A stretch of 64,000 bases of DNA from Hirundichthys speculiger. Lineage: Eukaryota > Chordata > Actinopteri > Beloniformes > Exocoetidae. How positions within the stretch are numbered: position 1 is the first letter of the stretch; each line of letters begins with the position of its first letter. Shown piece after piece: positions 7,346 through 57,730 of the stretch. A program made the translations under genes and the position numbers. Under the pieces are notes generated by a model that saw nothing but the letters and a program-made list of their open reading frames with translations, was not told the DNA's origin and searched no databases. The stretch is from NCBI GenBank assembly GCA_018398805.1, contig JAGFBZ010000863.1, positions 1,242,501-1,306,500 of the forward strand, in the 5' to 3' direction.

Positions 7346-7646
7346 CAGTAGAACTCAAAACTATGTTTATTAGTTTAAGTAAGAGCATTTTCACACACAC
7401 AATGTGAAGGGAACTCAAGGGATTGGGACTAAACAGCTGCAGCCTTAAGAAAACAACCTATCAGTGAGGCCAATTGGAAAAAAGCCTTCAATTTGCTAAA
7501 GATTAAAGGAGCTGTTTGTAAGATTATGGCCAAAACTGGTACTGCAGTCACTTTCAAATTACTGTTGAGCGGCGTGTACCCTCCCCCTCCTCCCCGACCA
7601 GAGGTTGCCAGGTCGGCTACAGAATGCAGCAGAAACGTAGGCTGTC

Positions 7647-7670
7647 ATGGCAAGCGACGAGTCCTACACA
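7647..7670 (+). other. Start-codon/splice-donor cassette in element A (plus)
   Basis: ATG at 7647 opens MASDESYT and is followed directly by a strong donor, GTAAGT, at 7671. The same reading frame and donor occur unchanged in copy B (ATG 19519, donor 19543). This resembles a first coding exon, but the following exon is not identified. Confidence 0.35.
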
Positions 7671-7876
7671 GTAAGTTTATTTTCTGTTAATTATATTTAA
7701 TGCTTTATGAAAGATCTTTCCTTTCTTTGATCTTTCGTAACTAGAGGAAATATTTTCCCGTTGAGGCGTTTCGTAACCTGAAAGTTTCGTATGTAGAGGC
7801 GTTCGTAAGTAGAGGTACCACTGTTACCTTGTCCAAGTAAATTAGCGTTAGCCAAACATTTAGCTATGAATCTTAC

Positions 7877-8064
7877 CTGTCCAGGAGAAAATCTGCAACG
7901 TTGGCGTCTGTCTTCAAATTCTTCTCCGCTTTCAGCCGTCTCCATCTATCAAAAGCATCTCCTATACAAATCCTTGTTTTATTTCGGACCTTGTCACGAC
8001 GTAACTCGGATTCATAACGAGGTCTTTTAGGTGTTGGAAAGCTAGACATTTTTTCATCCAACAC
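7877..8064 (-). pseudogene. Exon-like open frame with splice donor in element A (minus)
   Basis: The frame starts at ATG 8064 (or the internal Met at 8049, MSSFPTPKRP) and runs to a donor CAG|GTAAGA at 7877/7876. It encodes about 62 residues: a basic N-terminus (KRPRYESELRRDK) followed by RICIGDAFDRWRRLK and TDANVADFLLD. The second half resembles a short motif (IG.AF.RWR.LK...TDAE.A.FLLD) that I associate with transposon-linked fish proteins; I cannot name the family. Copy B keeps the frame open, with only a few substitutions that change residues. The stop codon lies inside the donor, as expected if splicing removes it. It may be a first exon inherited from an autonomous relative or a captured host exon. 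Confidence 0.45.
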
Positions 8065-8999
8065 GTTCGTAGCGGCTGCTGCGATAATTAGAGCCGAGCT
8101 GGCAACCCGGATGCCGAAACACTACTGACTTCGTGATTGGGAGATAGGTGGAGGGTGGCGCTTCAGGCCAAAACAAAAAATGACAACATCAACATCAGTT
8201 GAGGGCTGCAACTCCTCTTTTTAAACGGGAATATCCTGGCTTGAGTGCTGTTGTCAGTGACATAAGTATTTGAAATGAACATGATTTTTAAATGTCTGTT
8301 GACATATCGGGGTCATTTTATGATTTGTTTTATTAGATCTCTTACATACAGCTCCTTTAAACTCTGGAGCAATGGAAGAAGGTCATGTGGTCTGATGAGT
8401 CCAGTTTTACCCTGTTCCAGAGTGGTGGGAGCATCAGGGTAAGAAGAGAGGCATTTGAAGTGATGCACCCATCATGCCTAGAGCCTACTGTACCAGCCTG
8501 TGGGGGCAGTGTTATGATCTGGGGTTGCTGCAGTTGGTCAGGTCCAGGTTCAGCAACAGTATGAGCGCAAAGAATGAGGTCAGCTGACTACCTGAATATA
8601 CTGAATGACCAGGTTATTCCATCAATGGATTTTTTTCTTCCCTGATGGCACAGACATATTCCAAGATGACAATACCAGGAATTTATCAGGCTCAAGTTGT
8701 GAAAGACTGGTTCAAGGTGCATGAGACATCATTTTCACACATGGATTGCCCTACACAGAGTCCAGACCTGAACCCCATTGAGAATCTTTGGGATGTGCTG
8801 GAGAAGACTTTGTGCAGCGGTCCGACTCTCATATCATCAATGCAAGATCTTGGCTATAAAAGTAATGCAATAAATGTTTTGATATTGCAGAAACGATGCC
8901 ATAGCCAATGCGTGCTGTAATCAGAGCTAAAGGTGGTCCAAACAAATAATAGAGTGTGTGACTTTTTTCTGTAGATGGGCAGTGTATTTGATTAGTTGA

Positions 9000-13749: not shown

Positions 13750-14017
13750 CTTGTTTCCAGTGGCACATTGCTACCCAGCACCCAGCTGTCTTGCAGCGGG
13801 ACGCTCTCAGGGGGTGTGGTCTGCAGCTCGGCTGGTGATTGGCCGGCCACAAGGGCCGGGCTTCCAGAAGGAGGGGTTAGTTGCCGCGAAGAATTCAGTG
13901 TCTGGCTAGGGTGATGTGTCGAGCCCAGGGCTTGGTTGAGAGCTGTCACTGATGGCTGTTGGCGGTGAGGGGGCGGAACAGGAGGCAGAGTGGATCCATG
14001 ATGATTTAAGGGTTGTT
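13750..14017 (-). CDS. tenm3: Teneurin coding exon, intracellular domain (268 nt)
   Basis: Teneurins are large type II transmembrane adhesion proteins that guide synaptic partner matching; this exon encodes part of the cytoplasmic N-terminal domain. The translation starts (E)[19 protein letters not shown], a Pro/His-rich linker, and ends with the family-diagnostic block [11 protein letters not shown] then [23 protein letters not shown] and [10 protein letters not shown] match TENM3 better than TENM2 (WVLNSNVPLE), TENM1 or TENM4; paralogue choice is my judgement. The acceptor is TTGACAG just upstream of 14017, after a pyrimidine-rich tract, and the donor is AG|GTGAAT after 13750. The exon starts in phase 1 and ends in phase 2. 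In relatives the next exon opens with HFLFK; it was not found in 1-13749, so that intron extends past the window. The frame is intact and clearly under coding constraint compared with its surroundings. Confidence 0.93.
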
Positions 14018-18870: not shown

Positions 18871-19378
18871 TATTGAACAATATGAATTTAATCAGTTTTT
18901 CTCCAACTGTCTGCATTTTTTCTTTTTTTTCTTTCATTTCTATTGGTGAAAGTTTCAAAAGACTTTGAACTTAAGCGAATGCAAATATTGAGATTGATAT
19001 TTTGCACGTTGCATGAATCCAATCCTCCCTCTGAATCCAACAACACAAGTGAGAGTGAATTTATTTCAAATATTGTTGTCATGGATCAACAAAGTCATGG
19101 ATCTGCAGTGACAGATCTGTCTCTTTTTGTTATTTTTCATTTAAAAAAAAAAGCTTACTCAAATCTTTATGTGGATAAAACACTAAAATTCAGACTAAGT
19201 CTGTGTCCTATATGCGCATCTGCAACACTCATCGTTGACTCCTATTCATTGTAGAGTTGTTCCGTTACCAATACCAGGGATCGGACAACTGGTCAGTACA
19301 GCTGAAAATATATGTAATGGCAAGCATTTACATCTATTTGCCATTTGATGACATTTAAGAAATAGTTTAATGTGTTAA

Positions 19379-20228
19379 AGGAGCCGTTTGTAAGATTATG
19401 GCCAAAACTGGTACTGCAGTCACTTTCAAATTACTGTTGAGCGGCGTGTACCCTCCCCCTCCTCCCCGACCAGAGGTTGCCAGGTTGGCTGCAGAATGCA
19501 GCAGGAACGTAGGCTGTCATGGCAAGCGACGAGTCCTACACAGTAAGTTTATTTTCTGTTAATTATATTTAATGCTTTATGAAAGATCTTTTCTTTCTTT
19601 GATCTTTCGTAACTAGAGGAAATATCTTCCCGTTGAGGCGTTTCGTAACCTGAAAGTTTCGTATGTAGAGGCGTTCGTAAGTAGAGGTACCACTGTTACC
19701 TTGTCCAAGTAAATTAGCGTTAGCCAAACATTTAGCTATGAATCTTACCTGTCCAGGAGAAAATCAGCAACGTTGGCATCTGTCTTCAAATTCTTCTCCG
19801 CTTTCAGCCGTCTCCATCTATCAAAAGCATCTCCTATACAAATCCTTGTTTTATTTTGGACCTTGTCACGACGTAACTCGGATTCATAAAGAGGGCTTTT
19901 AGGTTTTGGAAAGCTAGACATTTTTTCATCCAACACGTTCGTAGCGGCTGCTGCGATAAATAGAGCCGAGCTGGCAACCCGGATGTAGAAACACTACTGA
20001 CTTCGTGATTGGGAGATAGGTGGAGGGTGGCGCTTCAGGCCAAAACAAAAAATGACAACATCAACATCAGTTGAGGGCTGCAACTCCTCTTTTTAAACGG
20101 GAATATCCTGGCTTGAGTGCTGTTGTCAGTGACATAAGTATTTGAAATGAACATGATTTTTAAATGTCTGTTGACATATCGGGGTCATTTTATGATTCGT
20201 TTTATTAGATCTCTTACATACGGCTCCT
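19379..20228. mobile_element. 850-bp TTAA-flanked nonautonomous element, copy B
   Basis: TTAA flanks at 19375-19378 and 20229-20232. The ends are AGGAGCCGTTTGTAAGA and (reverse complement) AGGAGCCGTATGTAAGA. Same orientation and same length as copy A, about 98% identical by eye. At the position where copy A has T in both ends, copy B has C in both ends. It carries the same plus-strand ATG/donor (19519/19543) and minus-strand exon. Confidence 0.85.
19749..19936 (-). pseudogene. Exon-like open frame with splice donor in element B (minus)
   Basis: Starts at ATG 19936 and ends at donor CAG|GTAAGA (19749/19748). It differs from copy A at a handful of residues (for example FPKPKSPLYES against FPTPKRPRYES) but keeps the conserved RICIGDAFDRWRRLK and TDANVADFLLD text unchanged. 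Several of the 17 or so copy differences fall in this exon, yet none introduces a stop. Confidence 0.45.
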
Positions 20229-20350
20229 TTAATAAAAGATAAATAAAAATTACAAATTACACTGGTATCAAATTAAGTACTGGCCAACACCCAAAGCCCA
20301 GGCATCAGAATTGGTATTGGAAAGGGAAAAAAAATGCATCAGTAATCTCT

Positions 20351-23040
20351 AATTCCTTAGCTGATTGAAATTTAGTTGTGACTCAGCCAGACAAATGCTT
20401 CATCCTGTCACCTCAAGCATTTTTTTTCTTTGAAAGTTCTAGTCCTTTTTCTATTTGATTTCATGAGTTTCTGTTTGTGATTTGAGTTCGTAAAACAACA
20501 TCAAGTGGCCTGAAGAGTTTTTTTTTAATAGGAAGCAGTTATCTAATTTGTGAAACCACTGGATAAATAGGGAGTTCAAATTGGTGTGGCTTTAATGGCT
20601 GTGTTTATTCATGAAAATGGGGGCTATGCAATCATTTAGCATGTTTGAGATGTATTGAAAGGCACTAGATTACTGAATCGTAATCACATCAAGTTGAGGC
20701 AAGTAAAGAGACACCTCAACACTTGTTGAGTCTCAAGACAGCCACAGTTCTCTAATACTACAATCGGTGACAAAACAGACTCTATATAATATAGTAAAAG
20801 CTAACGTCAAGTCAATCTGAGAATGCTCTGAAATAAACCACTGAAAAGTGAACACATTGTGAAATTATCTTTATTTTGTCAGCAATAATATACGAAAGAA
20901 ACCTGTCCATTACGGCCTAGTCCTATGCTATGGATCTTAAGCAATTACTAAAACCCATCACATACCTGTTTGTCACTCAATACACATTAGATTTACAATT
21001 GCTCTGTTGCACAATTGCCCTTTTTCCATTTTGTCAACAGATTAATAAACATCAAACTCCAGAACAAGAGTAAAAGGCTGCTCAGCTTTCAGAGCTCGCA
21101 AACACTCTCCATCTAAAAGTTCTGTTTGGAATGCTGGTTATGTAATTGCTTTACCTTCCCCAGAGTTTCCAAGAGTTAACTACTAATCATGACTGGGGTA
21201 AAAAAGAAAAAAAAAAAAAAAAGAAAAAACCTCATTTGAAGATATTGCAAAAAAAAAAAAAGGTTGATTTGTGTTCCCTGTGTATCAGCACATTATCTTA
21301 AACTGATGCAGCATTGGTTTAAGTGTATCTGACTCGAGATATTCTTCTCCCTAATTAAGCTTGGTAGCATGTCTCTGTTTCTTTGAATCTTTTTTCCTTC
21401 CAACCTCTTCCAGGATGTTTTGCAACTCTGACCAGAGAAAAGGGGTTTAAGAGAGTTCCATTCCCTGGGAAACACTCTCTTGACGTTTGAATTTCAGCAC
21501 ATCTGATGTGAAACTGAGGGTCTGGCCTGACTGCCTGATCAGGTCACTGGAGCTTACCAATTAGAGCAGAGTAAATACTACAAGGGAGGGCCGCTTTATA
21601 TAACTTCTATCTTAACAAAAAAAAAAGTAAATATGCTGGTAAAATTGCACTTTACACGTCTGGGGACTATAACAACTTAATGACCTGTAATATCCCAGAA
21701 CTGTGGCCATCAATTAGAGTTGAGGCAATGTCAACGGCATTTGCATAGCATTTCTCTTGGTGTTTGGAATTTTCTAAAGCCCATATGAGAAAGCTACAGC
21801 ATTTTTATCAAGATGGGATTGTTACTGCAGATTCCACACTTAACTAGAAAATAGCGGTGATGTCCTTGGAGATGATAGCAGCAAGGGAGTCCTTAGTCTA
21901 CAGACGGGCATATTAAAGATGAATGTGGGTATATAAACCTGACAAGAAAGGGCAGAGTAACAAAACCCACTGAACAGCCAAGAGGGGCATTAATCGAAGA
22001 GGTATCAAGGAAGCCAAAAGTAACATTAAAGGAGCTCCACAGCTGAAATTGAAGTGTGAGTCTATAAGACAACCCTAAACCATGCACTCCACAAAACTGG
22101 ATTTTATACAAAAGTGGCCAGAAAATCCCAACTGCTTTAAAAAGAAAACACACACAGATACAAATACTGTCTGGGGTGCTGACTAAGAATGTGGACCATA
22201 CCCTGGTCTTGTGGTTCATTGTTTGCCCGCCTATTCATCTATTCATTGAAAAAAGTGGTGTCCATTATTGTAAAAATGGTTAAGAATCACAGATCTGGAT
22301 GAGGAAGCAAACAGAGCTCTCTCCATCACCAACCTGAGCTTGCAGATAAAGCAGAAGCTCACATGTGTCATAACTGCTGGAGAAACTTGTGTTCAACCTC
22401 ATCAAGCCTCACTGGTGCCTTACTGTCTTTGTATTCACAGCACAGCAGAGCAACACTCAATGCCAACAAAGACCAGCCTCTAACACTCACTTTGTATTGG
22501 TTGTGGTGCTCAAAATTTGCAGATACTAGGCAAAGGCATTAGTTTATGCTGCATAAATCTAACCTCATTCTGTGTATGTTACCAAGATATACAGTATGGC
22601 AACAGCAGAAGCAGGAGCTTGTATTCTTGTCCAGAGGGGGGAGGGAATGCAATAAGGAGAGAAGTCAAAAGTCAGTCTGTGTTGAAGCAGAACACAGACA
22701 TGCAGTCGTTCTGTGTTTCTGCATTCTAGCCTCTGGTGTCTAAACATTATTAAATGATACTATTGGAACTGTTGGAAGGAATTTCCCACATTATATATTT
22801 GCAGCATTCTGTAAAATTATGTGTAATATCCCAGGGTCCTATTATGAATTTCAAGCCATATTCATATGACATTTATCCACCTCTGTAATATTGCCTAAAC
22901 TATGGAACAACTTTTCTTGTAATGATAGTAATAACTACTCTATGCATTTGCAAATAGGGCTAAGGCAATTACTATTAGACTTTGCAGAAAATTCTCTGAT
23001 CAGCCTCCAAGCTGATCCAACATGCTGAAAAAGGAGTTCT
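20351..23040. other. Teneurin intron, no gene recognised
   Basis: A-rich runs at 21198-21260. The block at 21670-21800 (with ATCAATTAGAGTTGAGG and GGCATTTGCATAGC) is repeat-free and could be conserved regulatory sequence. Nothing coding is recognised. Confidence 0.5.

Positions 23041-47637: not shown

Positions 47638-47698
<61 letters not shown>
47638..47698. repeat. (TA)n tract 1
   Basis: About 29 TA units. Confidence 0.95.

Positions 47699-47703
<5 letters not shown>

Positions 47704-48071: not shown

Positions 48072-48138
<67 letters not shown>
48072..48138. repeat. (TA)n tract 2
   Basis: TA units with one or two TG interruptions, continuing into (GT)n up to 48160. Confidence 0.95.

Positions 48139-48146
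<8 letters not shown>

Positions 48147-48961: not shown

Positions 48962-49038
<77 letters not shown>
48960..49038. repeat. (TA)n tract 3
   Basis: TA units preceded by (AC)n at 48946-48959. Confidence 0.95.

Positions 49039-57695: not shown

Positions 57696-57730
<35 letters not shown>

Follow-up and report, generated by a model that had tools for sequence, protein, structure and literature searches.

Retention of a putative transposase first exon in a nonautonomous Kolobok-like element of Hirundichthys speculiger

Identification of a probable deleted Kolobok-like element

We analyzed a 64,000-nucleotide stretch of the genome of Hirundichthys speculiger (GenBank assembly GCA_018398805.1, contig JAGFBZ010000863.1, positions 1,242,501 to 1,306,500 of the forward strand), referred to below as the window, in which an 850-bp unit is present in two copies (7507-8356 and 19379-20228). 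This unit is very probably an internally deleted Kolobok transposon, whose minus strand carries exon 1 of the transposase gene. To the whole explanation, i.e. that the deletion left the ends, the first exon(s) and the splice donor(s) in place and that any trapping of host genes is a by-product, we assign a probability of about 0.85. The initial annotation of the window had interpreted the same unit as a portable gene trap, composed of two convergent ATG/splice-donor cassettes, one on each strand.

The copies are 98.0% identical across 857 bp; the 859 aligned columns contain 18 differences, including the base just beyond the right TTAA. TTAA duplications border both copies, and the outer 21 bp, including the TTAA, form terminal inverted repeats matched at 20 of 21 positions. 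The initial view of a nonautonomous, TTAA-flanked mobile unit was thus borne out. The sequence adjacent to the TTAA reads AGGAGC...GCTCCT, and such 5'-RR..YY-3' termini set the Kolobok superfamily apart from piggyBac (PMC9587614); they were found, together with the TTAA duplication, in both copies. The left end, TTAA AGGAG, also agrees with the terminal rule described for T2-MITEs, i.e. TTAA followed by AGGRR (PMC6004289). As regards the high copy number of T2-MITEs, two near-identical copies were found within 64 kb. Parts of the element have observed/expected CpG ratios (CpG o/e) between 0.62 and 1.31, vs 0.36 in the window, a weaker depletion that fits a recent arrival of the copies.

The minus-strand cassette as probable exon 1 of a transposase gene

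On the minus strand of both copies, an ATG is followed by a frame that remains open up to CAG/GTAAGA, as first noted, although it comprises 57 codons rather than about 62. The exon has a length of 173 nt (57 codons plus 2 nt), which gives an intron phase of 2. A TAA stop lies in frame within the donor GTAAGA, so that an unspliced message would yield a peptide of 58 amino acids (aa). When copy 1 was shuffled 1000 times with preservation of dinucleotides, no shuffle contained, on either strand, an ATG with at least 50 open codons leading to MAG/GTRAG.

A goldfish protein of 738 aa matches the translated frame at its N-terminus (82%) and carries the D-D-DxxH-C-E pattern typical of Kolobok transposases. 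A database search spanning protein lengths from 154 to about 1487 aa identified five proteins, from four cyprinoid genera, that are at least 80% identical to exon 1; two of these are transposases. In all five the shared part ends at the point corresponding to the donor, where, at the protein level, two continue alike into the transposase and three continue each in a different way. Of the 46 proteins of one search, 17 contain the motif of the exon 1 domain; apart from Garra, they represent 11 named fish genera. The transposase P0052 and its relatives contain (i) the DDE triad, (ii) DxxH between the second D and the E, and (iii) a zinc finger between DxxH and the E, whereas the element itself holds only the homologous exon 1. 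The transposase model has an RNase H-like core. Homology thus upholds the minus-strand cassette as a genuine first exon that ends at a consensus donor, and a similar exon heads gene models of cyprinoid VMO1 and NLR proteins (see below). The RR..YY termini and the Kolobok DxxH/zinc pattern of the associated transposase speak against a piggyBac origin of the element.

The exon 1 domain is basic, and its predicted model consists of helices only (mean predicted local distance difference test score 73). Searches for its fold in Pfam, in PDB (with sequence and profile) and with Foldseek/VIA on the predicted model gave nothing; a ribbon-helix-helix-like fold, suggested by the sequence pattern, is not claimed in view of these empty searches. 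Scanning of viral contigs with P0052 and the terminal repeat also gave nothing, and prokaryote genome contigs scanned with P0052 yielded 11 pattern matches and 0 relatives, which is to be expected because the DNA is that of a fish.

Proposed origin of the element

In the full element a transposase gene would have started at the right end and run inward, possibly opposed by a second gene coming in from the left end. Loss of the middle part would spare the two ends together with the 5' region, first exon and donor of each gene, while the transposase would be provided in trans by a full-length element. Should the former transposase promoter still be active, exon 1, having lost its own downstream exons, would be joined to the next acceptor of the gene that hosts the copy. 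Within phase-2 introns the result would be an in-frame N-terminal fusion, and elsewhere the 58-aa peptide or a frameshifted product. The trap-like action would then follow from the deletion, and it is plausible that gene trapping is a by-product of the element.

What looks like a "designed" trap cassette can come about simply when a transposon that bears genes loses its middle part. A short element in which the first exon of a transposase persists with an unpaired donor would offer a simple route by which host genes receive, from the promoter side, promoters, start codons and a small basic domain. Among the matches listed in our literature search, no title or abstract opening, to which the screen was confined, dealt with a transposase first exon in a nonautonomous Kolobok.

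Predicted fusions with host genes

Three of the five exon-bearing proteins run into non-transposase sequence directly after ..LLD and the split codon. In these gene models exon 1 is joined to (i) VMO1 (P0004, in which the VMO1 domain profile is matched without its first 65 positions), (ii) an NLR (P0051), and (iii) in Garra rufa, a protein with an AT-hook-like stretch that remains below the Pfam cut-off (P0003). The downstream part of P0003 displays a weak zinc-ribbon likeness to this family of transposases (phmmer, best E value 2.2e-4, in a small database of the proteins of this analysis). A further gene model, P0046 of Polymixia lowei, joins a relative of the exon 1 domain and the N-terminal half of the transposase to C2H2 zinc fingers, and is possibly another host fusion.

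Whether spliced host fusions of this exon family really occur in some cyprinoid fish is, in our estimation, evenly balanced. We only tentatively put forward a broader scenario, which is rather less likely to be correct than not: that in cyprinoid fishes Kolobok exon 1, with its promoter, start codon, basic domain and phase-2 donor, residing in either gutted or complete copies, has repeatedly been spliced onto NLR, VMO1 and other genes and has thereby supplied them with new N-termini, that gutted 850-bp copies are the vehicles, and that copy 1 is ready to serve as an alternative teneurin first exon. Predicted fusions to named host genes make the trap idea testable.

The teneurin gene surrounding the copies

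Between the two copies lies an exon that matches the Pfam domain Ten_N (PF06484; 37.9 bits vs a cut-off of 27, E 2.2e-09), which is part of the teneurin intracellular region, indicating that the window is apparently situated inside a minus-strand teneurin gene with long introns. Copy 2 is located upstream and copy 1 downstream of this exon, and in both copies the transposase exon is in sense with it. The donor of copy 1 has phase 2, the phase of the intron that follows the teneurin exon, a match for which the chance odds are about 1 in 3. Transcription starting in copy 1 could thus give an in-frame N-terminal variant of teneurin, provided that no unrecognized exon lies between. Short motifs detected no further teneurin exons in the window, and a splice-site scan of the window gave zero exon candidates, with filters that would have missed the known teneurin exon as well.

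The plus-strand cassette and the 5' stretches

The plus-strand cassette of the initial annotation, an ATG with eight codons (MASDESYT) followed at once by GTAAGT (at 7671 and 19543), is indeed present in both copies. However, ATG with at least seven open codons leading to GTAAGT occurred, on either strand, in 154 of 1000 dinucleotide shuffles of copy 1, so that the cassette is compatible with chance. The plus donor is also preceded, in both copies, by an ATG at 7526, which is open for 48 codons, and by another at 7624; MASDESYT is therefore only one possible reading. In KolobokP a convergent second gene has been documented, and the Kol0 group has KolX as a second protein; such a gene, for which the literature suggests KolX, would explain why the left end holds a first exon too. 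That the plus-strand cassette represents exon 1 of such a gene is, in our view, as likely as not.

The two 5' stretches, described initially as GC-richer and as sharing an inverted motif, have GC contents of 0.52 and 0.49 vs 0.38 in the window. The motif, GGTTGCCAG.TCGGCT, is common to both arms at 15 of 16 bases (self-BLAST, self-E 0.11), and its strict internal left/right local score was 27 vs at most 23 in 300 shuffles, whereas a looser gapped alignment of both 5' stretches scored 17.5, inside the shuffle range (maximum 19.5). The short motif is thus supported, but not a longer common 5' region. It may represent a shared promoter or a transposase-binding site. No TATA-box match was found within the element.

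Points that weigh against the proposed explanation

Several observations speak against the interpretation given above. Only two copies, both from the window, were compared. The deletion is inferred from protein homology, and the exon ends in the relatives from the points at which the proteins diverge. As for the transposase assignment, a Pfam scan of P0052 gave no family, and hence no THAP domain, which Kolobok transposases usually possess (PMC6004289), and Foldseek alone returned no structural match at E <= 0.001. The THAP domain was not treated as defining, because the superfamily is described by the TTAA, the termini and the DDE/DxxH pattern (PMC9587614).

The fusions are gene models, and could be artefacts of automatic prediction in unmasked genomes; the exon in them may stem from deleted or from full-length elements. 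The donor of copy 2 does not match the phase of the teneurin exon that lies downstream of it, and a transcript could be terminated ahead of a host acceptor by hexamers resembling poly(A) signals, which lie beyond the exon 1 donor on the minus strand (near 7701 and 7681). By the shuffles described above, the plus-strand cassette alone is not above chance.

Finally, nothing indicates that the minus-strand frame is kept by selection. Exon 1 differs between the copies by four nonsynonymous changes, all within residues 6-22 and none in residues 23-57, and by two synonymous ones; the comparison of nonsynonymous and synonymous changes (dN/dS), proposed in the initial annotation for all genomic copies, reveals no selection between these two, with proportions of 0.030 (pN) and 0.055 (pS) from only 4 and 2 changes, respectively. 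Divergence amounts to 6/173 in the frame vs 12/686 outside it (one flanking base included; Fisher p 0.23). The frame is open in both copies because these are young (2% apart), and selection is not needed.

Alternative explanations

The main functional rival is a repressor similar to that of the truncated P elements known as KP, in which exon 1 would encode a terminal-repeat-binding domain, and the 58-aa peptide, translated from unspliced or trapped transcripts, would bind the ends of the element and damp the full-length transposase. P activity may be repressed by truncated P elements whose DNA-binding domain is retained (PMC12393704), and in the element described here exactly the N-terminal domain is retained, with a stop directly after it. 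The basic sequence, the helices of the predicted model and the restriction of all four nonsynonymous differences to residues 6-22 are consistent with such a role. However, DNA binding is only putative, with Pfam, PDB and Foldseek giving no match, and 4 vs 2 changes are far too few to speak of constraint. We consider a repressor unlikely.

It is highly improbable that the unit is a portable bidirectional promoter carrying two first exons, both preserved and spread because it starts transcripts that are spliced into host genes in either orientation, although both copies hold two convergent ATG/donor units, the exon occurs in gene models of host fusions, and both copies lie in sense beside the teneurin exon, one in a compatible phase. 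The exon is accounted for by descent from a transposase gene, the plus-strand cassette stays within the range of chance, and constraint between the copies is not visible; moreover, trapping of host genes would bring no evident transmission benefit to the element. The reading of the unit in the initial annotation as a symmetrical trap is not supported; one strand very probably carries a remnant of the transposase first exon, the other a cassette compatible with chance.

Even less credit can be given to capture of a host exon by the transposon (Pack-type transduplication): the exon does head VMO1 and NLR models, but the joined host proteins differ from each other, and the recurrent partner is the transposase, as seen from the distribution of the domain motif. 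The least probable explanation, that of chance open frames without coding history in two young copies, an objection already raised in the initial annotation, may well apply to the plus-strand cassette, and a frame open at the origin of copies 2% apart would probably still be open in both, but for the minus-strand frame it is refuted by the 80-84% identity to protein starts in four cyprinoid genera, with the shared part ending at one point, and by its absence from all 1000 shuffles.

Comparison with known systems

Host-transposase fusion genes have reportedly been treated as "transposase capture" by Cosby et al. 2021 (cited in PMC9250109). There, as in the deleted Kolobok proposed here, a part of the transposase enters a host protein via splicing; the difference is that here the transposon would contribute the promoter side and the first exon, and that the fusions are known from gene models alone.

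A close resemblance is to the T2-MITEs and Kolobok elements of Xenopus and zebrafish, which share the TTAA duplication, AGGRR or 5'-RR..YY-3' ends, near-identical nonautonomous copies, and an associated transposase with the D-D-C/DxxH-zinc-E signature (PMC6004289, PMC9587614). In contrast to these, the associated fish transposase begins with another domain (a THAP match being absent by Pfam), and the present element retains a coding exon with a donor. The words "exon", "promoter" and "splic" do not occur in the main text of PMC6004289. KP derivatives of the P element are likewise internally deleted and have kept their two ends along with an N-terminal portion of the transposase (PMC12393704), but they belong to another superfamily. 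In the present element, unlike KP, everything after the first exon is gone, leaving the donor unpaired, and the product would be much shorter (58 aa), with hypothetical repressor activity and DNA binding. Kolobok coding material has also been joined to a host gene in P2X7, which arose from a P2X4-like gene combined with KolX, a protein of the Kol0 Kolobok elements (PMC9587614, PMC7016195); KolX is located at the C-terminus of P2X7, whereas the transposase first exon would be placed at the N-terminus here.

Features of the window

The coordinates of the identified features are presented in Table 1.

Table 1. Features of the two element copies and of the surrounding gene, in positions of the window.
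Feature	Position	Strand	Basis
Nonautonomous Kolobok/T2-like element, copy 1	7507..8356	.	Identity to copy 2, flanking TTAA, inverted ends
Left TTAA target-site duplication, copy 1	7503..7506	.	Sequence
Right TTAA target-site duplication, copy 1	8357..8360	.	Sequence
Left 21-bp terminal inverted repeat incl. TTAA (TTAA AGGAGC...)	7503..7523	+	20/21 vs right end, opposite strand
Right 21-bp terminal inverted repeat incl. TTAA	8340..8360	-	Match to left end
Internal inverted motif, left arm, GGTTGCCAGGTCGGCT	7603..7618	+	15/16 vs 8092-8107, minus strand
Internal inverted motif, right arm, GGTTGCCAGCTCGGCT	8092..8107	-	Match to left arm
Plus-strand ATG frame MASDESYT, copy 1, candidate first exon of a second, convergent gene	7647..7670	+	Sequence; compatible with chance
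Plus-strand donor-like GTAAGT, copy 1	7671..7676	+	Sequence, present in both copies
Exon 1 splice donor GTAAGA	7871..7876	-	Sequence; database proteins diverge at the corresponding point
Transposase exon 1, copy 1	7877..8049	-	80-84% aa identity to N-termini of P0003, P0004, P0005, P0051, P0052
Putative transposase promoter/5' leader	8050..8200	-	Composition only: GC 0.49, CpG o/e 1.0
Teneurin exon, 268 nt, with phase 1 at its start and phase 2 at its end	13750..14017	-	Pfam Ten_N PF06484, splice sites, phase
Element, copy 2	19379..20228	.	TTAA at 19375-19378 and 20229-20232
Plus-strand MASDESYT frame, copy 2	19519..19542	+	Sequence
Transposase exon 1, copy 2	19749..19921	-	4 nonsynonymous and 2 synonymous changes vs copy 1

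Translations of both flanks of copy 1 (about 7430-7506 and 8361-8960) read as pieces of one transposase, in a frame that differs between the two sides; we take this relic to be Tc1/mariner-like. Copy 1 therefore seems, as far as the letters tell, to be nested within an older transposon. A third occurrence of TTAAAGGAGC, at 22026, was rejected as a further copy of the element.

Elsewhere in the window there are three long TA arrays (47638-47703, 48072-48146 and 48962-49038). The peptide SWKKLLDH is common to opposite-strand translations beside the first two of them (47707 on the plus and 48066 on the minus strand), which suggests an inverted-repeat element inserted among TA repeats. An uninterrupted run of 27 G was found at 57696-57722.
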